Source: Chloroflexus sp. Y-396-1
GTDB taxonomy: Bacteria > Chloroflexota > Chloroflexia > Chloroflexales > Chloroflexaceae
Assembly: GCF_000516515.1 (NCBI RefSeq)
Contig: NZ_KI911784.1
Coordinates: 1,178,001-1,242,000 of the forward strand
DNA length: 64,000 bases
Reading direction: 5' to 3'
The position numbers were made by a program, and so were the translations under genes. The notes below the pieces were generated by a model, which was given only the letters and a program-made list of their open reading frames with translations, was not told where the DNA came from and did not search any database. Below are positions 9,987 through 52,759 of the stretch, one piece after another (position 1 is the stretch's first letter; each line of letters starts with the position of its first letter).

Positions 9987-10751
9987 AGGGCTTTTCAAAG
10001 TTTTCCTTCTCCTCGACAGTGGTGAGGTGAGGAGAGAGGGAAGTGGAAGAGGTGGGTTCCCCCCCCACCCCCTGCCGCTCCCGAACGAGACGAGGCAGGG
10101 GGTGGTTGGGGTGGGTGGACGCTCACACCAAATAGCGTGTTAAAGGGGAGATCACCAGGTTTCCCGCCGTATACCGCACGTGCGGGCCGGAGGCCCGCGC
10201 ACCCAGGTAACAACGCGGGTCGGGTGTCATCGGTGTTACCCGGGTAACAGCGCGGGTCGGGTGTCATCGGTGTTACCCAGGTAACAGCGCGGGTCGGGTG
10301 TCATCGGTGTTACCTGGGTAACAACGCGGGTCGGGTGTCATCGGTGTTACATTGTCTGGTCACTATCGGTGACCCGAAGCTGAAAATCCCGAAAAGCCCT
10401 AATGATAGAGGTTTTTAATGTTTTCGGTTTTCAGTCATGTTCACCGTTGAACGTCGCTCCTACTGTCATCACGATGATCTCCGATGCGATGGCGCATGCT
10501 GGCAGCCTGCATCCAGCAGTGGCTGCGGTAGAGCTGTGCCCTCGCAAGAGTATGCGAGAAGGGCAGATTGGGAACCCGCCCCTACCAAGCGCGCACGCAC
10601 ATCATCGGCGTATGACCAGGGACCAAACCGGAGACCACCTCAACACGGAGCGCAGCGCATCTTTACCCACGCTGTGGACATTCCGCTCACTCCCCACGCC
10701 GTCCCTCTCTCATCACGTCTGCCAGGTTGGGTGAGAACGTTGAAAAGCCCT
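9987..10751. repeat. MITE-like composite element with inverted ends
   Basis: The left end AGGGCTTTTCAAAGTTTTC and the right end GAGAACGTTGAAAAGCCCT are inverted repeats with 17 of 19 matches; an additional right-type end occurs at 10382-10400, so two related units may lie in tandem. No transposase is encoded. Related ends occur at 44996-45014 and 58548-58566. No clear target duplication was found. Confidence 0.5.
10207..10350. repeat. Four-copy 37-bp tandem repeat
   Basis: Four near-identical 33-nt units start at 10207, 10244, 10281 and 10318. Each begins GTAACARCGCGG and ends GGTGTTAC, so each has GTAAC/GTTAC inverted ends. They are separated by 4-nt spacers CCGG, CCAG and CTGG. The copies differ at only one or two bases, so the amplification is recent. 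Related single units occur near 710-745 and 63939-63970. Confidence 0.85.
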
Positions 10752-39243: not shown

Positions 39244-41970
39244 TCAGCGGGAAATGATTGGCAGATAGCGATCATACGCAATCGGGAGACCGGTTATCAG
39301 TGGAAAGGTAATACCACCGGATGGTGCCGTAGTAACGCCACCGATACCAACCGGAATATCGGTTGCCAGCCAGGTACGGATAAATGCGCTCCATGGATCG
39401 GTTTGCCCACGGTACAACAGCGACTCAACCAGCACCGGCTGCGCACCGAAAAGTGAGCGATGAGGGAAGAACTCGGCGAGACCCGCGCCGGGCGGGAGCG
39501 AGGGGATACCAACCTCTCCGGCGGCGTTGCGTCGGGTTGCCAACACGAGCGGCGTACTCCCTCCCAGCGCATTGGAAAGATTGATGGTCGCGGTACGTAC
39601 TGCGGCTAGATTACTATTCTGGAGTGCCGGTGCATTGGCCAGCGCCGCTGCGAAATCACCCAGATCGACAAAGGCATCTTCCGGCACCGACCAGCGTTGA
39701 CCGGTAGGATCGGGGATAGCATCGGCCAGGCCATTCCCAGAACTATCGTACACAGTACTCCTGGATCGCACTTCTGTTAACGATGGCTGAATGACGGCTG
39801 CGCGCTCATTCCAAATCTGCTGCAATGCAGTGGCGAGAGTATCACGCGCTGAACGCACCTCATCGGCGCGATCCAGATCAAGCGCCGTCAAAGCGTATTC
39901 GCGCAACACACCATTTGAGCGAACCGCATTACCGTAGAGCGTAGGAAGATCCACGGCAACTGCACGAGGATTATCGCCACCACTTGCTGTTAATCGGCCA
40001 AGCACGCGGTGAATCCAGGCTGTGCGCCAGATATTGCCGGGCGGAGCAACCAGATAATCCGCTGCCGGCGCCAGCGCCAGCGCCGTGTTTAGGTTCGCCA
40101 TCAACGGTGCCTGGAAGAGCACCAGATCGATCCGCTTTTCGGCGGCTATTGTTGCCTCACGCAGCGCAACACCGAGATCGGTAATAGCCATTGCTGGCGT
40201 GGCGGCGACCGACTCATCACTGCCAAAACCAAAAGCCGGATGAGCTGGACCAACCAGGATCAGCATAGTACGCGCAGCCGGAAATTCGCTCAGACCAAAC
40301 CGCACAAATTCGCGGAGAGTATCTGGATCAGCACTGTTCGGTTCAAACTGGCGCCGACAATCGACTGAGCTACCCCGGAATGCACAGATGTGACCTCCGG
40401 TGATCCCATAAGCATCGTAGAAGGTCACAATTGAAAAATCGGGATAGGCAGCCGCCAGTGAACGCAGACGTTCTAACTCAAAATCAGGCCGGGCCACGAC
40501 ACTGGTGCGTAACGGATCACCAAGCGCGTTATCAGCAGCAACGTAGATCAGGATTGTCCAGCGCGCTGGATCAGCACCAGCAGGCAACCCTTCATTTTTA
40601 ATCACCTGCACCGGTAGTGAAGCCGGTGCCGAAAGAAACGTGATTGTGCGCTCAGCGAAGCTGTAGCCATACGCAGGCAAAGTATCTGTGCCACGACCAT
40701 CGTGAATCTTGACATACCAGCGGTAAGTGTGACCATAGCGTAGGGTCATAGTATTCACACTTGCCGGAACCAGATCGATATACGGTGCTGCGGCTGTCAG
40801 GCGTGGGCTACACCACTGGGGCGATAGACCGGTTTCAGGGATGAACAGGGTTGGGTCGTAGAGACATATCTGATACTCTTCACCATCAATTGATCGCGGC
40901 TCAAACAGGAAGCGCACTGGCGAATCATCATTCAGGACGAGCCGGGCATTGGGTTGCGGATCAAGCAGGCGCGGTGAACTGAGTTCCAAATCGAGATCGG
41001 TTCTCTCATCACCAGCCGCTAACTCAGTAACGACCGGCCCTGCCAACACGCTCAACCGTTGTCCATCACGACGGTTGGTCAGTGGTTGATTGACAAACCA
41101 GACCTGGTACGCTGCACCAGCAGACAAAGGTGGCACGCTAAACTGATAGCGAAACCCGTCATCGGCAGCTACTGCCTGAGCTGTTGCAACGACACTCCGA
41201 CTAGTTGTATCGGAGCGCACGAGCAAAATCTGAACATCGCGCAAATCGGGCGACTCACGATTGCTTTGGGTAACGCGACCACTAAGGGTAGCAAGGTTTC
41301 GCGAACAAAGCTGCACTTCAATGTCATCGAACGAGATCGCCAGCCCTGTACCATCATTAACACCCCGCATTGTTATGATTAACTGTGCAGCCCTTTGCTC
41401 GACGAGGGGCGTAATATCGGTCGCCGCCCAGGAGAAACTCCGCCAATTGCCATCGGCTTTTCCGGCCAGCGGAATATCTACTGCAAAGACCCGCCCTGTC
41501 GGTGTCGGATCATCAGGCACATTGAGGGCAATCGTCACTGTATCGTTCGGGCCAAGAGCACCTGGTACGATCCGGTAGCGGATCGTACCAATGATCTGTT
41601 CAGCCGCCGAGGGAACAGTAAACCGTTGCCTAAACGCATCAACATCTGTACTGACATCGCCATCACCATCGTCATCTTCGACCAGATAGATCGCCTGCGG
41701 CGCAGAAAACACACGGGCACTGGCGGTTGTGAAGAGTACTTCGTTTCGTACCGCTTGCCATGGCGATGACGACCGTGGCCGACTGATCGTTGAATCCTCG
41801 ATCACATCAGTACAAATCAAATTACTAGGGGTAGGTGGTGGCTCGGTGCTCACGGCTGCAAGCCGCGATGGCCAACCGACCATCGCCAGGATAGTACAGG
41901 TAAACAGGCCGATCCAACGCAACCAGAACGCAGCAGATCGGCTTGAAGTCTGGTACAATAGAGCGACCAT
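39244..41970 (-). CDS. Secreted pseudo-clostripain (C11 fold without catalytic residues)
   Basis: A 908-residue exported protein with an N-terminal signal ([29 protein letters not shown]). Residues about 60-230 and 235-330 are beta-rich carbohydrate-binding-like and carboxypeptidase-like domains. Residues about 470-750 align with the C11 domain of the FHA protein at 1088 ([15 protein letters not shown], then [23 protein letters not shown]). The His position is Pro575 (LVGPAHP for LWDHGAS) and the Cys position is Pro622 (FQAPLMA for FDACLMA), so it should be inactive. The ATG at 41970 has GGAG 9 nt upstream; a GTG five codons earlier is possible. It is divergent from gatA with 25 bp between starts. 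Confidence 0.72.
41954..41959 (+). promoter_or_regulatory. Extended -10 promoter (TGGTACAAT) of gatA
   Basis: TGG-TACAAT lies 36 nt before the gatA ATG but inside the coding 5' end of the divergent gene (codons 4-6 of the pseudo-clostripain). Confidence 0.55.
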
Positions 41971-41995
41971 GCGCCACAACTCCACTGGAGGCGAT

Positions 41996-45067: not shown

Positions 45068-45562
45068 CTAATCACGCCCGATGGCGGCTTCGGTCAAAAG
45101 ACGCACCATCTGCTCAATCGAACGTCGAGTGCGGGCGAGCGCCAGGGTCATATCGGCCAGCACAGCCTCGGCCAATATAAAATTGGATTGGTAATTCTGG
45201 CGCAAGGTTGGAAACAGACCCTGCGCCTCTTCAAGACTGTGAATCGCGTCCGCAAGAGCGTGTTCGCTATCGTCACGCTGACGAGCGGCAACCATTGGCC
45301 AGCGACCATGAATTTCGGCGCCGCGCACAATGACCAGGTAGCGACGCATGCGTTCAGTGCAGGTTAAGGCATCGCACACGGCACGTTCGGCAGTAACGAT
45401 CAGTACCCGACAGAGGTGAGTGTTACGGCCCAGTTCGCTGCGCACCTCATCCAGCGTACTCCGGGCCTGCAGGATGTGCTGAACCACCTCTTCCGCTATG
45501 CGGATCAGCTCGACTCTCTCGGCCTCCAGTTCGGTTGGCCAGCGGCGTGGTATCGTCGGCAT
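45068..45562 (-). CDS. Helical protein of unknown function, next to the gasdermin locus
   Basis: 164 residues, almost wholly helical and charged, with three Cys (THLCRVLI, AVCDAL, LTCTERM) and repeated Ala/Glu/Arg heptads (IRIAEEVVQHILQARSTLDEV; ALADAIHSLEEAQGLF). No family is recognised. The start MPTIPRRW has AGGAG about 12 nt upstream; a longer frame reaching 45760 would overlap more of the neighbouring gene. Its first 116 bp overlap the end of the upstream gene in another frame. The pair is divergent from the mraZ-like gene. Confidence 0.5.
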   Translation of the reverse strand: MPTIPRRWPTELEAERVELIRIAEEVVQHILQARSTLDEVRSELGRNTHLCRVLIVTAERAVCDALTCTERMRRYLVIVRGAEIHGRWPMVAARQRDDSEHALADAIHSLEEAQGLFPTLRQNYQSNFILAEAVLADMTLALARTRRSIEQMVRLLTEAAIGRD

Positions 45563-45941
45563 AATCAATCGTGCTCCTTCGTGGTCGACGCAAGTACTCT
45601 TCCGTCGCATGCTGGCGGAGAATATTTTCACCCAGTTGCCAGAGGATGATTGGAATACCTGCGGCGACAAAACTACGCCAGACCAGCTCTTCATAGCGGC
45701 GCCAGTCAAGATGTCCCAGGCGACGGGCAGCCAGCGCAACTGGCGCCAGCGAGAGAACAACCCCGCCGGCGACCTCGGCCCAGAGGTGATCGGGCAGTAC
45801 GGTTGGAAAACGACGCTGAAGCAGACTTAGCGTTGCAGCATAGACAGACGATAGCCCTATAACCTGCAGAGGAAGTTGTACTGTCAGATGATCGGCTTCG
45901 GTCACGGTGTTGATCGTGGCGTTGTCATTCACTGCTCGCAT
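45447..45941 (-). CDS. Small membrane protein of unknown function
   Basis: 164 residues with three hydrophobic segments (about 24-43, 55-77 and 88-106) and then a polar tail. The start has AAAGGAA about 8 nt before ATG. The last 38 residues (rich in Gly, Arg, Pro) are encoded in the 116-bp overlap with the downstream gene and look like read-through in a second frame, so the functional protein may end near residue 126; a frameshift in one of the two genes is also possible. No family is recognised. It faces away from the gasdermin locus. Confidence 0.5.
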   Translation of the reverse strand: MRAVNDNATINTVTEADHLTVQLPLQVIGLSSVYAATLSLLQRRFPTVLPDHLWAEVAGGVVLSLAPVALAARRLGHLDWRRYEELVWRSFVAAGIPIILWQLGENILRQHATEEYLRRPRRSTIDYADDTTPLANRTGGRESRADPHSGRGGSAHPAGPEYAG

Positions 45942-46297
45942 TGCGGGGTTCCTTTCAGGTTCTTTTCAGGTATCATTCTAGCACGATAGGGTAAAATTGT
46001 CCAGTACTTGGGTTCTATTCAGGCTGTTATTATACGGTTATTGACCCTCCTCTGGTAGTGCTCTCACCTATTCCTGAAGAACATCTGCCCTCATCATACC
46101 CTCCTTGTTCTGGTTGATCAACTCAGTCCGCAACTATCATACTACAAATTGTAGTAAAATCAAGTCCCCATCAGAAACCCGTGAGATAGGACTAGACGAC
46201 TTGAATATTATATGCTATAGTAACATTCGCTAAACCAAAAAGCACCCAACAAGCACCCTGAAATGACTGAAGTCGCTGTTGACAAATGAGGAGGACT
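45942..46297. other. Divergent regulatory region upstream of the mraZ-like gene
   Basis: This AT-rich gap separates the two minus-strand genes from the gasdermin locus. It holds the first operator dyad (46140-46156) and a probable extended -10, TGC-TATAGT (46216-46221), 76 nt before the mraZ-like ATG. No gene or repeat copy is visible. Confidence 0.55.
46140..46156. promoter_or_regulatory. Operator dyad 1, TACTACA-AAT-TGTAGTA
   Basis: A perfect 7-bp inverted repeat with a 3-nt spacer, about 60 bp upstream of the -10 of the mraZ-like gene and 200 bp upstream of the divergent membrane gene. The sequence resembles BlaI/MecI/CopY-type operators (TACA...TGTA). Confidence 0.7.
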
Positions 46298-46753
46298 ATG
46301 CTGCTCGGTACGTGGTATGCGGCGCTCGATAACAGTGGCCGCTTTACAATCCCAGTTCCGCTGCGGCCGTTGCTTCAGGCCGGTATGATCATCACCCGTG
46401 GGTTTGATCGCTGTTTACAACTCTGCCCAGAACCGTTCTGGCGTGGGCTAGCGCAACGGGTGAATAGCCTTACCCTCAGTGGCGCCGATGAACGTTGGGT
46501 TCGTCGGTTGTTGTTTGCCGAAGCCAGTGTCTTACGGATGGATGACCAGGCAACAATTACGCTAAACGAGGCTCTGCGGATCTATGCCGGTATCGACCAT
46601 CAGGCAGTATTAGTTGGAATGGATCAGTATCTGGAGGTGTGGAGTCCTGAACGATGGCAAGAATGTCAGGCTACGCTGGTAGCAGCAGCCGGGCGTTGGA
46701 CACGGCGTGACTGGGATATGGCCGTATCGTTACGCGATGGCTTTTCTTTATAA
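46298..46753 (+). CDS. MraZ-like (AbrB-fold) DNA-binding protein
   Basis: 151 residues with two AbrB-like halves as in MraZ. The first opens MLLGTWYAALDNSGRFTIPVPLRPLL (compare MFxGEYxHxLDxKGRxxIPxxFR) and contains RGFDRCLQLCPEPFW; the second has LLFAEASVLRMDDQATITLNEALRIYAGIDHQAVLVGMDQYLEVWSPERW. MraZ usually opens the dcw cell-division cluster as a DNA-binding regulator; here no mraW or ftsL follows, and the downstream genes are a CHAT peptidase, an amidase, an FtsZ paralogue and a gasdermin-like protein. AGGAGG is only 3 nt from the chosen ATG; ATG at 46286 is in frame. Confidence 0.75.
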   Translation: MLLGTWYAALDNSGRFTIPVPLRPLLQAGMIITRGFDRCLQLCPEPFWRGLAQRVNSLTLSGADERWVRRLLFAEASVLRMDDQATITLNEALRIYAGIDHQAVLVGMDQYLEVWSPERWQECQATLVAAAGRWTRRDWDMAVSLRDGFSL

Positions 46754-46777
46754 TCATGTTTACTACAATATGTAGTA
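46749..46777 (+). promoter_or_regulatory. TATAAT promoter with operator dyad 2 at its start site
   Basis: TATAAT (46749-46754, overlapping the mraZ-like stop) is followed by TACTACA-ATA-TGTAGTA (46761-46777), so the dyad covers the predicted start of transcription. A repressor bound here would block the promoter of the downstream genes. Confidence 0.65.
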
Positions 46778-46792
46778 GAAAGGCAATTTGTG

Positions 46793-46915
46793 ATGAACGA
46801 TACAACGGTTGGTCGGTGTCGTATGCCACTCCTATCACACCTAGCTGACCGCACGATGTCCAGAAATAGTAAGGGGCCGGGACCGTGGGCACTTAAGCGT
46901 GAGAAGTCCGGCTGA
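46793..46915 (+). CDS. Possible 40-residue leader peptide
   Basis: A short frame (MNDTTVGRCRMPLLSHLADR...) begins 15 nt after dyad 2 with AAAGG 9 nt upstream of ATG. The layout dyad-GAAAGG-AAT-ATG is the same as for the next ORF (46974), which is the main support. The peptide is basic and resembles nothing known; it may be a leader or not translated. Confidence 0.3.
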   Translation: MNDTTVGRCRMPLLSHLADRTMSRNSKGPGPWALKREKSG

Positions 46916-46941
46916 CCATGATTATTTTTTGTCGTTATTTT

Positions 46942-46958
46942 TACTATACACTGTAGTA
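46942..46958. promoter_or_regulatory. Operator dyad 3, TACTATA-CAC-TGTAGTA
   Basis: The third copy, with 6 of 7 base pairs kept, followed as in copy 2 by GAAAGG and an ATG. It overlaps a possible -10 (TACTAT/TATACA) just upstream of the small ORF and the CHAT gene. Confidence 0.65.
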
Positions 46959-46973
46959 GAAAGGAAATCGTTC

Positions 46974-47165
46974 ATGACCCTCTCAAGCCGATCCGTTCTC
47001 TATTCGCCGGTGAGCCGACCAACTGCCAGCGCCGCGATTGCCCGTCAGCGCTTACACCGAACGTTGCAACTTGATCGGCGCGCTACCCATGACCACCGTA
47101 TGGATCAGCAGTTGCTGAGTGCGCTGCTGGGCACGGAAGTAGCTCATTCATCGCGTCAGGAATGA
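46974..47165 (+). CDS. 63-residue protein coupled to the CHAT peptidase
   Basis: A short basic protein (MTLSSRSVLYSPVSRPTASAAIARQRLHRTLQLD...) rich in Arg, Ser and His with no TM segment. AAAGGAA precedes its ATG, and its TGA overlaps the ATG of the CHAT gene (ATGA), so translation is coupled. An in-frame ATG at 46899 lies upstream of dyad 3. The role is unknown; it may be a small partner or inhibitor of the peptidase, which is speculation. Confidence 0.5.
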   Translation: MTLSSRSVLYSPVSRPTASAAIARQRLHRTLQLDRRATHDHRMDQQLLSALLGTEVAHSSRQE

Positions 47166-48673
47166 AACGCGCACCGCTTATCATCGGTTACGCTGTGGCG
47201 AACACAATGGCTGAATGGTGGTTCGCGACCAGGATGTACACCGATCTGTTCAGGTTGTTGTTGCTCTGGTTGTGTTTCGGGTGGCAGGTAGCGGTAATCA
47301 CCTTCAGCCCGCTCTCCCTTTTGCTCATGACCTTGATTCGGCGATTGCTACGTATGAGATCAACATACCAGCCCGTCATACTTTCAATCGATTTCAGTTC
47401 GTATCAGCGCGGGTTCTTTGTGCGCTGGGAGGCCAGCGAGGTGATCGATATTACCCAGAGCCAAATGCCAATGCCGATTGCTGAAGCCGATCTTCCCCTA
47501 GTGCTACGAGCGCTTGATGTGCTGCAAGACCCAGCATACCCTCATCCGTGGACAGCAGCACAGGAAGCGGTGTTTACGTTTACCCAGAGCGAACAGGATC
47601 GCCTACGCGAACTCGATTTCTGGGCCGATGATCAGCGCGTTCCACCCGACTTACCACGCCGGGTAGGACGACGTCTCTTTCGGGCACTGACGCATGATAA
47701 ACGTGGTGCCGAAGCACTGAAGATTGTCCGAGCATATGCGCTGGCAGTTGACCGTCCGTTGCTTATTTCTTGCCACTTTAATGCCCATGCACCGGCTGAT
47801 GTAGCGCTGGCTTCGCTGCCGTGGGAGCTGCTTTGGGCTGATGAGCCAACACCGCTTCTGGCCGAAAGACGGCTGGCTGCCACGATCGAGCGACGGCTGA
47901 AGCATACCGGTCCACCACCGGTACCGGCGCCGGGTCGTGGTGCGTTGCGCATTTTGGCGCTTTCGCCACAGGCCGGTATTCCCCCCGAACTGCGCCAGAT
48001 CGAGCGGAGCGCTCGGATGCATGCCCTGCAACCGCTCCTCGAACGACAATTGGCCGAACTCCGTGAGTTGAGACCTGTTTCACGCCGCGAGCTAGAACGG
48101 GTCGTTCGGGAATGGTCGCCAGACGTGATTCATTACTACGGTCACGGAAGATACGAACAGGGAAGTGGGGCACTGTTGCTCGATAGTGAGTATGGCGGGG
48201 AAGAGTGGATACCGTCTGGAGCATTAGCTGCTGCCTTTGGTGGGGTGCAGATGGTTATGTTGCATGCCTGTCAGGGAGCAATGACGACTCCAGGCACACC
48301 TCTGCTCGGCAGTGTAGCCCCTGCACTCAGTCTGGCCGGGGTACCGGTCGTGATCGGTATGCAGTTTACCATTCGTGCCGATGCGGCAACCCGCATTGCC
48401 AGCATTGTGTACGCTGGGCTAGCCCAGGGGCGTAGCGTGCAGGAAGCGCTGACGGCGGCCCGCATCGCATTGTACGTCAGTGAGACGGATCAGGTGTCGT
48501 GGTTTGTACCAGCACTATACGTGCGTAGTCGAAGTCAAGGGCCAATCTATCTACGAGCACCGAGTGACCAACCTCCAGCATTAACGCTGGGCACCCACCA
48601 AATACCACGCATTCGCCGCCTGCGTATTCAGGAAGAGTGGGTGCGCCAACGCCGTCATCATCGTAGTGAATGA
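47162..48673 (+). CDS. Membrane-anchored CHAT-domain cysteine peptidase
   Basis: 503 residues. Two hydrophobic helices (about 28-60) anchor the protein; a 90-residue linker leads to a CHAT (caspase-like) domain from about 185 to 475. The dyad is clear: H328 in DVIHYYGHG and C370 in VMLHACQGA. LASLPWELLWADEPTPLLAERRL and PVVIGMQFTI are typical CHAT strands. CHAT peptidases cleave selected proteins in programmed death and defence, and bacterial gasdermins are often activated by such neighbours. It precedes the amidase, FtsZ-like and gasdermin-like genes on the same strand (next gap 19 nt). I infer that the gasdermin-like protein is its target. Confidence 0.85.
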   Translation: MKRAPLIIGYAVANTMAEWWFATRMYTDLFRLLLLWLCFGWQVAVITFSPLSLLLMTLIRRLLRMRSTYQPVILSIDFSSYQRGFFVRWEASEVIDITQSQMPMPIAEADLPLVLRALDVLQDPAYPHPWTAAQEAVFTFTQSEQDRLRELDFWADDQRVPPDLPRRVGRRLFRALTHDKRGAEALKIVRAYALAVDRPLLISCHFNAHAPADVALASLPWELLWADEPTPLLAERRLAATIERRLKHTGPPPVPAPGRGALRILALSPQAGIPPELRQIERSARMHALQPLLERQLAELRELRPVSRRELERVVREWSPDVIHYYGHGRYEQGSGALLLDSEYGGEEWIPSGALAAAFGGVQMVMLHACQGAMTTPGTPLLGSVAPALSLAGVPVVIGMQFTIRADAATRIASIVYAGLAQGRSVQEALTAARIALYVSETDQVSWFVPALYVRSRSQGPIYLRAPSDQPPALTLGTHQIPRIRRLRIQEEWVRQRRHHRSE

Positions 48674-48692
48674 TAGATAGTTCAGGTGAATC

Positions 48693-50600
48693 ATGTATCA
48701 GATTGAGTGGATTGGGATGATTCGCAATCATTTCAAACCGGGTACCCCGGATCGCATCCGCATGATCGTGTTACACGCAACCGCCGGTACCTATCCTGGC
48801 GATCTGAAGTGGTTGCGTCAGGGTGGCGCACCGGGGCGCGAAGTTTCGGTTCATTACTATATCAATAAAAGCGGTCAAATCTTCCAACTGGTTGCCGATC
48901 AAGATATTGCCTGGCATGCCGGTAGGAGCCGTTGGGAGGTTGATGGACGCATGGTTACCAATTGTAACGAGGTGTCACTAGGGATCGAGTTAGAAAACCG
49001 CAATGACGGACGCGATCCCTACCCACCTGAACAGTACGCAGCAGCATGCTGGCTGACTCGCGAGCTAGCGCAGAAGTATCAGATTCCGCCGCATCAGGTA
49101 GTACGCCACCTTGACATCTCGCCTGGTCGGAAGACCGATCCGGCTGGGTTTCCCTGGCAACGCTTTCTTGCCGAGGTCTTCGCCGATCTCCCTGTTCAGC
49201 CAGCGTTACCGCCAGCCGAACAGTTGCGACAACACATGCTCGATGTTGCATACCGAGCCGCCGGCAGTGGCCTTCCTGCCAACTGGCCCTTCTTTACCGT
49301 AGCTCGCACGACCAATCTGGGAATGCCGGTAACTTCATTGGTGACCCGTCCACCAGCGCCACGGCCAGCATCGGCGCCTGATGATCGCGAACGGGTTCTG
49401 TCACTCCCTGATGGAACGCGCTATGTGGTTGAAGTGTACGCACGTGATGCACTGTTTGCTGCCGTCGGCTCGGATGATACGCTCCACGCCAATGAGCCGA
49501 TTCGACGGTTAAGCGATATTCCGGCCAGTCCACAACGTCTGACCTTGCTTGAAGCTATCTTCCGGGCGGCTGATCCGATCAATGGCTTCCAGCCAGGTTG
49601 GGCATTCCACCAATATTTTCTCGCTCATGTCAATGAGCTTGGGATGCCAATCAGTCACAATCATCGGCTGACACTGGCTCCAGGCTGGAACGTCGCCTGC
49701 CAGCATTTTGCGCTTGATAGTCTTTGCTCACCGGTTGGTCAATGGCAAGTTATCTACCGCCTCAGTGAGATCCGGCGCGCCGCAGCGGGTGAAACATGGC
49801 TCGCCGGTATGAGCCGTGATCGGGCAGCACAATTAGCGCAACTCTTACTCAATGACCTCTTTGCCATTCGTACTGGTCGCCGGTATCAGGCAGACGCGGC
49901 ACTGGTACGCTATGCACTCGATGAGGAATTAGGCGCACCACTTGGTCAAGCCGAAACGACCCTCATCGATGGTGTACCAATTGCACTGATGCCCTTTGCG
50001 CTCGATGTGGTTGCCTGTCGGTTGCCAACCCCTGATTGGCCGCTCGACCGACCACTACCGCCTGGCCATCCTTTTGGCCGGTTGACAACCCTGCTTAGCC
50101 CGCGTCGTTGGCACAATACTGGTATTGTACGCCTGTCGCGGCTGAACGATCAATTTCGTTCACTGCCAGCCATCAGGAACCAGCCTATCCTGGGGCCGAT
50201 TCTTCAGCATCGACCACTGATTGATGTCAGTTTGTTTGCCGGTGATGGCGAGTTGCGACGACGTGCAATCGATACCATTCTGGTTGTATCTGCACCAGGG
50301 CCTGCGAGCATGTCACTGTTCGATGCTCACAACGAGGCGCGCTGGCATTACTACATCGATCATACCGGAACCATCTTCCGATTACGGAATGAACGCTATG
50401 TCGCACGTGCTGCGCGTGGCATTGGATTACCTGCTGAACAGCTCGACCAGCGAGCACTAGTGATTGCCGTCGAAGGATCACTTGAACACGCTCCACCTGG
50501 CTTGCGTCAGGTAGTACGTACATTTGTACGATGGCTCCGACGCCATTTTCAGATCGGTCATGATCGCGTGCGAGCAGGTGAACTGATGTATGAACTTTAG
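48693..50600 (+). CDS. Tandem Amidase_2/PGRP-fold protein
   Basis: 635 residues. The N-terminal domain (about 20-170) is an N-acetylmuramoyl-L-alanine amidase/PGRP fold with likely zinc ligands H28 (VLHATAG), H139 (VVRHLDISPG) and D149 (KTDPAGFPW). The middle has two or three repeats of a 'LGMP(V/I)S...W' module. The C-terminal 110 residues repeat the amidase fold (HYYIDHTGTIFRLRNERYVARAARGIGL against HYYINKSGQIFQLVADQDIAWHAG) but the first His is Ser. There is no signal peptide, so it should be cytoplasmic unless released by lysis. CAGGTG precedes ATG. The position 19 nt after the CHAT stop argues for one operon. Confidence 0.83.
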   Translation: MYQIEWIGMIRNHFKPGTPDRIRMIVLHATAGTYPGDLKWLRQGGAPGREVSVHYYINKSGQIFQLVADQDIAWHAGRSRWEVDGRMVTNCNEVSLGIELENRNDGRDPYPPEQYAAACWLTRELAQKYQIPPHQVVRHLDISPGRKTDPAGFPWQRFLAEVFADLPVQPALPPAEQLRQHMLDVAYRAAGSGLPANWPFFTVARTTNLGMPVTSLVTRPPAPRPASAPDDRERVLSLPDGTRYVVEVYARDALFAAVGSDDTLHANEPIRRLSDIPASPQRLTLLEAIFRAADPINGFQPGWAFHQYFLAHVNELGMPISHNHRLTLAPGWNVACQHFALDSLCSPVGQWQVIYRLSEIRRAAAGETWLAGMSRDRAAQLAQLLLNDLFAIRTGRRYQADAALVRYALDEELGAPLGQAETTLIDGVPIALMPFALDVVACRLPTPDWPLDRPLPPGHPFGRLTTLLSPRRWHNTGIVRLSRLNDQFRSLPAIRNQPILGPILQHRPLIDVSLFAGDGELRRRAIDTILVVSAPGPASMSLFDAHNEARWHYYIDHTGTIFRLRNERYVARAARGIGLPAEQLDQRALVIAVEGSLEHAPPGLRQVVRTFVRWLRRHFQIGHDRVRAGELMYEL

Positions 50601-50708
50601 TATGAGTTTGAGAACTCCATTCCTAGCAACAGTACCCTTCTATTCCTACACTGGGAGCATAGAGAGCTGGGTGAAAACGAGGATGTCTGCCGTGCTGTCT
50701 GCAAATTA

Positions 50709-50746
50709 AGAGCCTGATCAGAAATCCAGATTTGTGATCTGGCTCT
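50709..50746. repeat. Strong hairpin between the amidase and FtsZ-like genes
   Basis: AGAGCCTGATCA pairs with TGATCTGGCTCT (one mismatch) and the loop adds AAATC/GATTT pairing. It may dampen transcription between the two halves of the operon or be a solo repeat; the AGAGCCTGATC end resembles dispersed ends at 15656 and 22088. Confidence 0.55.
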
Positions 50747-50795
50747 AAGAGATCGGCTCTTGCTAGCGCTGGTCGCCAAAAATACAGGGGTGTCT

Positions 50796-51872
50796 ATGCA
50801 GCCAACAACACTTCCGTTTCACTCCCGCGTCCCGATCACTATCAAGCTGATCGGGTTGGGCGGATGTGGCGGAAATCTGGTCAGTACGTTGAAGCTCCAA
50901 ACCGAGCGGGTCGATCTGATCGTTGCAAATACCGATCACCAAGACCTGGCCGGTCGCACAAATGTGCCCACGCGCATCTTGTTGGGGCCACAATACACTG
51001 CCGGTAAAGGTGCGGGCGGACGACCTGAAGTCGGCGCAGCCGCGACGGCAGAAAGCGAGTCGACGCTGGCGAAGGTGTTAAGCGGCGCCGATCTGGTTGT
51101 GATCGTTGCCGGTATGGGTGGAGGTACCGGTACTGGCGCTGCACCGGTTGTTGCCCGACTTGCCCGCCAGCTCGGTGCGCTCACCCTGGCTTTTGTCACG
51201 ATGCCATTTTCCGTTGAAAAGGGTCAGCGCAGTCGAACCGCTGAACAGGGATTGACGACGCTGACCAGAGAAGCTGATGCAGTCGTGGTTGTCTCCAACC
51301 AAAAAATTCTCAATGTTGTTGATCCACGCACAACGCTATCCGTTGCACTAACCTATAGCAACACCATTCTAGGAGCAGCGATCAGTGGTGTTGTTGATCA
51401 ACTTTCCTTACCGTCACTCATGCAACTCGATTTTTCGCATGTACGGCAAACGCTCAGTAATGCCGGACAAACCATGCTTGGTATCGGCAGCGCCTCGGGG
51501 AGCGATGCCGCACAACGTGCAATGCAGCACGCACTCAAATGCGACCTCCTGGAAGGGAATCTATTGAAGGCCCGTCGGGTCTTTGTGTCAATTATTGGTG
51601 GGAGTCAGCTTGGTTTGATCGATGTCCAGCAAGCGATCGAGCAGATACATCGCACGATCAGCAACGAGATTGATCCAGTTATCGGGGTTGCAACCTCACC
51701 TCACCCTGCCCACCGTGATCGTGTGCGGGTGACTCTGATTGCCAGCGAAGTCGAATCGTTTCGCCAACCATTACGCTCAGCACGCTCTGCAAACATCGTA
51801 TCTGCATCGAACCATCTGTACCCTGACGATCTGCCACCTTTCTTGAAATTACACCATCGAGGTAGTCTATGA
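50796..51872 (+). CDS. FtsZ paralogue with altered catalytic T7 loop
   Basis: A 358-residue tubulin/FtsZ-family GTPase. The nucleotide loop is intact (GLGGCGGN at 20-27; GGGTGTGA at 108-115) and the C-terminal domain is FtsZ-like (QTMLGIGSASGSDAAQRAMQHAL; GARR/GG...IRV-type strands). The T7 loop reads Q210-L-D212-F-S-H215 in place of NxDFAD: the second Asp is His, so hydrolysis in a polymer may be slowed. The tail YPDDLPPFLKLHH resembles the conserved FtsZ C-terminal peptide that binds FtsA/SepF. AGGGG precedes ATG 50796. Its stop overlaps the gasdermin-like ATG (ATGA). It is probably not the housekeeping FtsZ. Confidence 0.85.
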   Translation: MQPTTLPFHSRVPITIKLIGLGGCGGNLVSTLKLQTERVDLIVANTDHQDLAGRTNVPTRILLGPQYTAGKGAGGRPEVGAAATAESESTLAKVLSGADLVVIVAGMGGGTGTGAAPVVARLARQLGALTLAFVTMPFSVEKGQRSRTAEQGLTTLTREADAVVVVSNQKILNVVDPRTTLSVALTYSNTILGAAISGVVDQLSLPSLMQLDFSHVRQTLSNAGQTMLGIGSASGSDAAQRAMQHALKCDLLEGNLLKARRVFVSIIGGSQLGLIDVQQAIEQIHRTISNEIDPVIGVATSPHPAHRDRVRVTLIASEVESFRQPLRSARSANIVSASNHLYPDDLPPFLKLHHRGSL

Positions 51873-52759
51873 TGCTTCACCTCTGCACCAATGATCCACT
51901 CGTTACGCTAGTGTACGATCTGTTTGGCGCGAATGCCGTGCGGGTTCCTGATGCTCGCATCCGTCCGTTGTCAGTTGTTGTGCATCGAAATGGACGAAGC
52001 ATCTTCCGTGGTTCATTGTTGCCACTGCTGACCGACTCCAGCCCTCTGAGTGTGCAACCTGCTGTGTCACAGCTCATTGATGTCAGTGGTCGGCGCTCGC
52101 GTCGGGTCAGTCTTGATCTCGGTATCCACATTCTGCGCGGTTTCTTGTACGGCTTTGGGCTGCCGACCGCTAACCTGTCTACCTCGCTCCAGGGTGTGTC
52201 TACCGTCGCGTTTTCGTTCCCAACGGCAATGCGGGTTGCCTACGATGTCAATGCGTTAGGTTGGGCATTAGCCGGTCGGGCAATTGACCGCACCAATCCG
52301 GCAGCAGCAATTCTCTTCGAGCAAACGCCGTATGAATTGTTGTTGATCGATTCAGTCCTGACCAGTCGTCATATCACAATTACCCTCAGCGGTACGAAGG
52401 GGCAGCGCCTGAACGTCGATATCGATGCGTTACGCCAGATGATCAGCGATCTCGGTGGTCAGATTGGTATCACCGGTGATTCTGAGCTTGAAATGACCCT
52501 TGCCAGCCCACACGATCTGACCTTCGCCTTTTCGTGTGTCCGTCTCTTCTTCAACGATGAGGGGTTTATCACGACGATGCCACCCGACCTGAACCGTCGA
52601 GTGTTAGGGAGCACCCATGGAACGACGGTGCGTTACAGCCCCGACCGGGTACTCCTCAGCGAGCGACCAGGATTGTTGATGTGGGATCGGTTGGAAGAAC
52701 ATCAGCGAAGGCCAGCCATTGCTACACCCCAGCGAACGCCCATGAATGAAGCAGTATGA
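51869..52759 (+). CDS. Bacterial gasdermin-like pore-forming protein
   Basis: 296 residues that resemble bacterial gasdermins (bGSDM) in order and pattern: VRVPDARIRPLSVV (24-37); a segment ending SLLPLL; DVSGRRSRRVSLDLGIHILRGFLYGFG (71-97); VAFSFPTAMRVAYDVNALGWAL; NPAAAILF (143-150); and the central YELLLIDSVLTSRHITITLSGTKGQRLNVDIDALR (155-189). A Cys near the N-terminus (C6) fits the lipid-modified Cys of the family. The last 65 residues form a candidate autoinhibitory tail for cleavage by the CHAT peptidase. Known bGSDMs open large membrane pores after protease cleavage and kill infected cells. The start overlaps the FtsZ-like stop, so the two are made together. Identification is by eye. 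Confidence 0.68.
   Translation: MMLHLCTNDPLVTLVYDLFGANAVRVPDARIRPLSVVVHRNGRSIFRGSLLPLLTDSSPLSVQPAVSQLIDVSGRRSRRVSLDLGIHILRGFLYGFGLPTANLSTSLQGVSTVAFSFPTAMRVAYDVNALGWALAGRAIDRTNPAAAILFEQTPYELLLIDSVLTSRHITITLSGTKGQRLNVDIDALRQMISDLGGQIGITGDSELEMTLASPHDLTFAFSCVRLFFNDEGFITTMPPDLNRRVLGSTHGTTVRYSPDRVLLSERPGLLMWDRLEEHQRRPAIATPQRTPMNEAV

Follow-up and report, generated by a model that had tools for sequence, protein, structure and literature searches.

Bacterial gasdermins are pores activated by a protease, and the known proteins of the BlaI family are repressors. In the accessible part of PMC7253601, operators of the BlaI/MecI/CopY group (TACANNTGTA; cop operator, RNYKACANNTGTMRNY) carry their cores in a TACA-N2-TGTA spacing, and the motif of C. 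thermocellum BlaI_0696 is given in the available text of PMC8457756 as two inverted GTCTAT half-sites, five nucleotides apart. MraZ sites are described, in the accessible portion of PMC8475190, as series of direct repeats. A literature search covering listings and the opening lines of abstracts, in a collection short of many subscription papers, returned no transcriptional operator of a bacterial gasdermin and no BlaI control of one; the available parts of PMC12565901, PMC8265638, and PMC4757040 yielded no operator sequence.

The window analyzed here is a 64,000-nucleotide stretch of the single-contig 4.89-Mb genome of Chloroflexus sp. Y-396-1, and feature coordinates are window positions. Its gasdermin locus is arranged in the order divergent ORF, dyad 1, mraZ paralogue, dyad 2, dyad 3, 63-amino-acid ORF, CHAT protease, amidase, FtsZ paralogue, and gasdermin, all genes but the first lying on the plus strand. 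The MraZ paralogue (46298..46753; PF02381, 2e-20) and the FtsZ paralogue (50796..51872; PF00091, 2.7e-41) are so termed because they stay below the NCBIfam equivalog cut-offs (TIGR00242, 91.9 bits against 98.35; TIGR00065, 286.7 against 295.2) and a canonical mraZ is encoded elsewhere in the genome. The small ORF (46974..47165) gave no match in a Pfam search; with tblastn, relatives of it were found at each of the 7 remaining loci of the genus. It is followed by the CHAT protease, listed as an ORF at 47162..48673 (PF12770, 1.5e-22; PADLOC chat, 3.2e-97), with which the genus relatives align starting at about residue 52-65, and by an N-acetylmuramoyl-L-alanine amidase of the Amidase_2 type (48693..50600; PF01510, 3.1e-39, in two stretches). 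The gasdermin itself (51869..52759) is recognized by PADLOC bGSDM (4.7e-75), by NCBIfam prok_gasdermin (179.7 bits, above the cut-off of 100), and by PDB 7n51 (1.3e-14).

As in described pairs of a bGSDM gene with a nearby protease gene, the CHAT gene lies in the same gene run and both proteins are strong PADLOC matches. By analogy with this type of system, protease cleavage would be predicted to activate the gasdermin pore. Unlike those pairs, the two genes are joined here with mraZ and ftsZ paralogues, an amidase gene, and dedicated putative operators. The gasdermin-CHAT operon with these companions (46298-52759) occurs in 8/8 genus genomes, and parts of it are also seen in further genera of the family. 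The divergent ORF (45447..45941, minus strand, 164 amino acids) had no match in a Pfam search; with tblastn relatives at 16 of 17 compared loci (7 in the genus, 9/10 in other genera), it is, judged by this conservation, a conserved part of the gasdermin locus. By eye, it seems to have its own promoter in 45900-46140 (CTAGACA-17 bp-TATAGT, on the minus strand in relatives), which adjoins GGGT repeats of period 11 resembling those of the mraZ paralogue. Elsewhere in the window, a 913-amino-acid clostripain-family protein (Peptidase_C11, 1.7e-15) is encoded on the minus strand at 39244-41985, a few kilobases upstream of the locus, and a 37-bp unit with TGTTACC-N2-GGTAACA palindromes is repeated in tandem (4.1 copies) at 10201-10350.

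Inverted repeats of the gasdermin locus

The initial annotation had described three TACTACA-N3-TGTAGTA copies with common arms and spacer. Scanning the window for TACTACANNNTGTAGTA bore this out for dyad 1 (46140..46156, TACTACAAATTGTAGTA) and dyad 2 (46761..46777, TACTACAATATGTAGTA), which are exact, but not for dyad 3 (46942..46958, TACTATACACTGTAGTA), an extra copy whose left arm departs from the others at one position and which is present in this genome only. A fourth, degenerate dyad (TATTATATGCTATAGTA, 46206..46222), overlying the mraZ -10 box, had been missed. Five matches at ≤3 mismatches, this one among them, were found in the window against 1.07 expected, a number reached in 0/100 shuffles. 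The first base of dyad 1, the putative upstream operator, is 158 bp ahead of the mraZ ATG; dyad 2 is situated in the leader that separates mraZ from the genes after it, 7 bp past the mraZ stop codon. Dyads 2 and 3 are each followed by GAAAGG, a likely ribosome-binding site on the plus strand (46778..46783 and 46959..46964), with ATG codons downstream of both, as had been annotated. A TATAAT promoter whose start was said to be covered by copy 2 did not survive inspection: the hexamer (46749-46754) ends 6 bases before that copy, where mraZ itself ends, and because it is missing there in the other 7 genus genomes, we discarded it as a conserved promoter.

Outside the window, the dyad is not common in its own 4.89-Mb genome, as the repeat considered in the initial annotation would be; the exact form occurs twice, and allowing ≤1 mismatch gives 4 sites, 3 of them at the gasdermin locus. 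Among 41 genomes of the family, exact dyads occur in 8, all of the window's genus, and all 15 copies are at the gasdermin locus; the 33 other family genomes scanned contain none. The mraZ-upstream dyad is exact in 8/8 genus genomes and starts 149-177 bp before mraZ. The site 7 bp past the mraZ stop codon keeps its position in 8/8 and is exact in 7/8, being replaced in genome G003 by three TACTACAGTACATAGTA copies. There, three leader units stand in tandem about 119 bp apart (L040:3013-3268), each with a dyad, a GAAAGG-like site, an ATG, and then a short ORF. When the region upstream of mraZ was aligned, 14/14 arm columns and 0/3 spacer columns were invariant, as were 46/358 other columns outside the -10 site; invariant arms around a free spacer are the pattern of a protein site. 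On this conservation, the dyads are operator-like DNA sites specific to the gasdermin locus.

More degenerate sites are found further afield. At ≤1 mismatch, the list for the genus comprises 27 sites, of which 16 lie at the locus; of the 11 others, 4 belong to a cvpA-like promoter and 7 to various places, the UbiA site described below being one of these. Beyond the genus, ten mraZ-paralogue loci were compared, and the upstream sites include TACTACTATATGTAGTA (g11), AACTATACACCGTAGTA (3/3 g6), TACTACTACATGTCGTA (1/4 g5), and TACTACAAATAGTAGCA (g12). Six of these ten are within one mismatch of TACKAYN5RTMGTA, a composite chosen after both kinds of site (at the gasdermin locus and upstream of blaI) had been seen, and no good upstream dyad is present at the other four, namely G008 and three loci of g5. 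In G008, whose genome gave no gasdermin match, the paralogue has neither this dyad nor the site over the -10 box. Taking the best site per locus, either the upstream dyad or the -10 site, 16 of all 18 mraZ-paralogue loci have a match at ≤1 mismatch against 0.19 expected from shuffles.

The mraZ-paralogue promoter and its direct repeats

The promoter of the mraZ paralogue is marked by an extended -10 box (TGCTATAGT, 46213..46221, plus strand), whose pattern TG[CT]TATAGT is present in 17/18 mraZ-paralogue upstream regions, and by a putative -35 element, TAGACG (46193..46198, plus strand), assigned from a conserved CTAGAC block and placed 17 bp before TATAGT. Dyad 1 is 36 bp upstream of this putative -35 element. 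The degenerate dyad over the -10 box has 16/17 invariant columns, and the corresponding site (TACTAT-N5-ATAGTA or a near variant) is within one mismatch of the composite at 15/17 loci with an extended -10 box. We read it as a putative second, weaker operator, the right half of which would double as the promoter; such an overlap with the -10 box fits repression of initiation. The distance from dyad 1 to the -10 site is 64-68 bp in the genus and 88-147 bp elsewhere, and the helical phasing sought in these distances as a sign of looping was absent.

Just past the -10 box lie ACCC direct repeats (46244..46258, plus strand), judged from their ACC-ACC distances to be probable boxes of the MraZ paralogue. 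Over 17 loci, these distances are 11 bp in 19 cases and 22 bp in 11 cases. A period of 10 was rejected for the paralogue in favor of 11, the period-10 pattern having matched 16/17 loci (5.0 expected) because it is loose. The canonical mraZ in 7 genus genomes does have repeats of period 10 (GTGGGGAAAA). The locus resembles the MraZ boxes of the dcw cluster in that mraZ is associated with direct repeats just past the -10 box (period 10 for the canonical gene, 11 for the paralogue) and differs in that the dyads are inverted repeats outside that series. The paralogue probably uses these separate 11-bp-period repeats, and since MraZ sites are direct repeats, the dyads are probably not its own.

A BlaI-family candidate and dyads upstream of blaI

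The initial annotation had likened the dyads to BlaI/MecI/CopY operators and placed their regulator outside the window. A search for the family, which it had suggested, found one full-length BlaI (PF03965) in each of 8/8 genus genomes (E values 1.7e-30 to 2.1e-29), encoded in the genome of the window at C1:1587027-1587452, on the same chromosome about 362 kb from the gasdermin locus. The distant gene agrees with a regulator acting from elsewhere; a local DNA-binding gene, the MraZ paralogue that heads the operon, had been missed. A second, weak PF03965 match occurs in 7/8 genus genomes and is a 260-amino-acid ORF in this one. The nearest solved chain to BlaI is 2g9w (4.1e-15), which we take to be M. 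tuberculosis BlaI, and the segment IAYTTVMTTM is invariant in 11 aligned BlaI proteins of the family. Some PF03965 match is present in 40/41 family genomes, with and without a gasdermin match, so co-occurrence does not discriminate. In G039, a draft genome 94% complete, the mraZ-upstream dyad is kept and the BlaI match is weak (4.2e-6), with a stop codon inside. The BlaR1/M56 protease (PF05569, Peptidase_M56) was found in 0/8 genus genomes, which makes beta-lactam induction through BlaR1 unlikely; we therefore rejected beta-lactam sensing by this route, and with it the annotated beta-lactam signal through repressor proteolysis lost its footing.

Related 17-bp dyads lie upstream of blaI itself. 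They read TACGAC-N5-RTCGTA in 7/8 genus genomes. Outside the genus, the form TACGA[CGA]-N5-RTAGTA is frequent, with TACTATATCGGGTAGTA and TACGACTACACGTAGTA at two loci; a distant BlaI of 38% identity (L281, in a record titled Gaiellales) is preceded by TACTACACATAATAGTA. The composite occurs at ≤1 mismatch upstream of blaI at 26/30 loci (0.31 expected) and, in a GTDB scan, at 37/70 (0.73 expected), the two sets overlapping in species; the controls at this threshold gave 0/70 for the reversed pattern, 0/70 inside blaI, and 0/69 downstream. At ≤2 mismatches, the counts were 59/70 and, for the reversed control, 16/70.

Because the composite had been chosen post hoc, the test was repeated with the gasdermin arms alone at 65 non-Chloroflexus blaI loci. 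Over 255 bp and at ≤2 mismatches, TACTAC-N5-GTAGTA was found at 11/65 and was the best of 90 palindromes of equal composition and spacer (next best, 7; mean, 0.96). Within 400 bp, it was found at 14/65, with the next best at 12. The spacer scan of the same loci (255 bp, ≤2 mismatches) was not clean: a spacer of 5 gave 11, and spacers of 2, 7, and 8 gave more (15, 12, and 29) because blaI promoters hold other TAGTAC/CACTAC elements; when the scan was widened to 400 bp, conserved sequence further upstream, taken to be divergent polyprenyl synthase coding sequence, contributed as well. Among 512 pentamers, TACTA/TAGTA comes 5th by enrichment in 70 blaI promoters (68 observed, 32.3 expected); TACTAC ranks 17 of 2044 hexamers, behind others such as AGTGTA and GTACTA. 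Across the whole of the window's own genome, the composite shows no enrichment (8 sites versus 8 for the control), three of its 8 sites being gasdermin dyads and one the blaI-region site. The blaI promoters L259, L262-L266, L268, L270, and L271, many labelled Roseiflexaceae, have GGTAGTACACTAC-like palindromes near the start codon, that is, the dyad half-sites in another arrangement.

Like BlaI/MecI/CopY operators, the dyads have TACA/TGTA cores in inverted orientation, flanked by outer bases that are conserved; there is more than one of them per target, and the genome encodes a BlaI-family protein. They differ in core spacing, which is 3 (TACA-N3-TGTA) rather than 2 in 15/15 exact genus copies (compare the rule drawn from TACANNTGTA and RNYKACANNTGTMRNY in the accessible part of PMC7253601). 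They also differ in that BlaR1, which pertains to BlaI/MecI but not to CopY, was not found, that one copy lies inside a transcribed leader, and that the target is a gasdermin operon. The annotated kinship with BlaI is partly supported, by the gene and by 17-bp dyads upstream of blaI that repeat the outer half-sites; the classical spacing is not supported. As to an operator at the repressor's own promoter, related dyads do lie upstream of blaI, but with TACGAC in the genus and a spacing that is not unique. As far as the available text of PMC8457756 goes, BlaI_0696 of C. thermocellum is alike in its 6-5-6 geometry, paired sites, and small regulon that includes the regulator's own operon; here, unlike there, the half-site is TACTAC rather than GTCTAT, no BlaR1 is found in the genus, and about 362 kb separate regulator and target.

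A further possible target is a CvpA-family gene (Colicin V production, PF02674), the promoter of which carries TGCTACAATNNGTAGTA in 7/7 genus orthologues; no orthologue was found in G002, a genome 82% complete. In the family, 13/29 cvpA-like loci have a composite site at ≤1 mismatch, 7 of the 13 in the genus. The left half of this site doubles as an extended -10 box, which may be the reason for its conservation. The promoter of a UbiA prenyltransferase gene (L003:1480-1545) holds TACTATAATGTGTAGTA between GTACTAGTA repeats, possibly a further site.

Readings of the dyads and proposed regulation

The dyads are very probably operators of some DNA-binding protein, and the readings that dispense with one fare poorly. 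A dispersed or duplicated repeat without a regulatory role is scarcely credible: the dyad-2 leader unit does look multiplied in this genome and in G003, but the same two positions are occupied in 8 species, with invariant arms, free spacers, and no exact copy elsewhere, and this conservation and confinement contradict a genome-wide repeat. Dyads 2 and 3 could instead be hairpins in the mRNA leader that serve processing, stability, or translation control, the likeness of dyad 1 being secondary. Both stand directly before ribosome-binding sites, and folding energies of the 23-nt stretch range from -3.2 to -8.1 kcal/mol across the 8 genomes; yet dyad 1, upstream of the promoter motif, would be outside that transcript, and the TACTACAGTACATAGTA copies of G003 break two inner pairs (-3.2 kcal/mol) with the outer arms kept. 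For these two reasons, we rejected a hairpin as the common function and give this explanation a very slim chance. That the MraZ paralogue binds the dyads and autoregulates is also quite unlikely. It is the sole recognizable DNA-binding gene at the locus, and dyads 1 and 2 flank it in 8/8 genus genomes, but direct repeats fit MraZ instead, and the period-11 ACCC repeats past the -10 box are a separate candidate site for it.

A choice then lies between BlaI and another distant dimeric regulator, for instance, a response regulator of the LuxR/NarL type or a GntR-type repressor, with the likeness to the blaI dyads being partly coincidence. Such a regulator is a possibility to be taken seriously, if not the favored one. 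It could be a dedicated one, as the genus has no exact copy outside this locus; position 4 is G in the blaI site of the genus (TACGAC) and T in 15/15 exact gasdermin dyads, and the spacer scan of blaI promoters is not clean. Against it, no search here implicates another regulator, and the dyad is the best of the 90 same-composition palindromes in blaI promoters. Counting against the BlaI reading are the core spacing, the post hoc choice of the composite, the reversed-control matches at ≤2 mismatches, the four paralogues outside the genus that lack a good upstream dyad, and the absence of helical phasing. The unclean scan, the stronger hexamers, the lack of genome-wide enrichment, the G039 genome, and the nondiscriminating co-occurrence hold it back further, so that the full proposal, in which the dyads are BlaI-bound operators repressing the gasdermin operon at two gates with MraZ as a second layer, is evenly poised between right and wrong.

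In this proposal, the 17-bp TACTAC-N5-GTAGTA dyads would be operators of a homodimeric repressor that keeps the gasdermin operon off, and the most likely repressor would be the winged-helix protein of the BlaI family, the only full-length one in the genome, whose gene is some 362 kb distant. Bound to dyad 1, upstream of the mraZ promoter, and to the degenerate site on the -10 box, it would block initiation. Bound to dyad 2, and to dyad 3 where present, in the transcribed leader before the ribosome-binding site, it would act as a roadblock, keeping the lethal CHAT-amidase-FtsZ-gasdermin genes off even during mraZ transcription. The unit of dyad and ribosome-binding site, which occurs twice in this genome and three times in G003, would fit such a second gate. 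A second layer of control may come from the MraZ paralogue, acting at the direct repeats near its own promoter.

A wider and more doubtful extension, which we put forward tentatively, is that a stand-alone BlaI without BlaR1 couples envelope state to a gasdermin lysis module. It would control its own region (with the polyprenyl synthase), the cvpA-like membrane gene, and, through promoter and in-leader roadblock, the gasdermin-CHAT-amidase-FtsZ operon, where alone the operators are exact. The MraZ paralogue would couple the module to division control, and the amidase would gain access to the wall through gasdermin pores, much as an endolysin does with the help of a holin.

How bacterial gasdermin genes are silenced was not found in the part of the literature covered by our search, and a locus-specific operator together with a named candidate repressor offers a testable answer. 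The mraZ and ftsZ paralogues and the amidase suggest a death switch tied to wall and division state, beyond activation by a protease. If true, the proposed regulation suggests how a bacterial gasdermin is held off in the Chloroflexus bacteria of hot springs.
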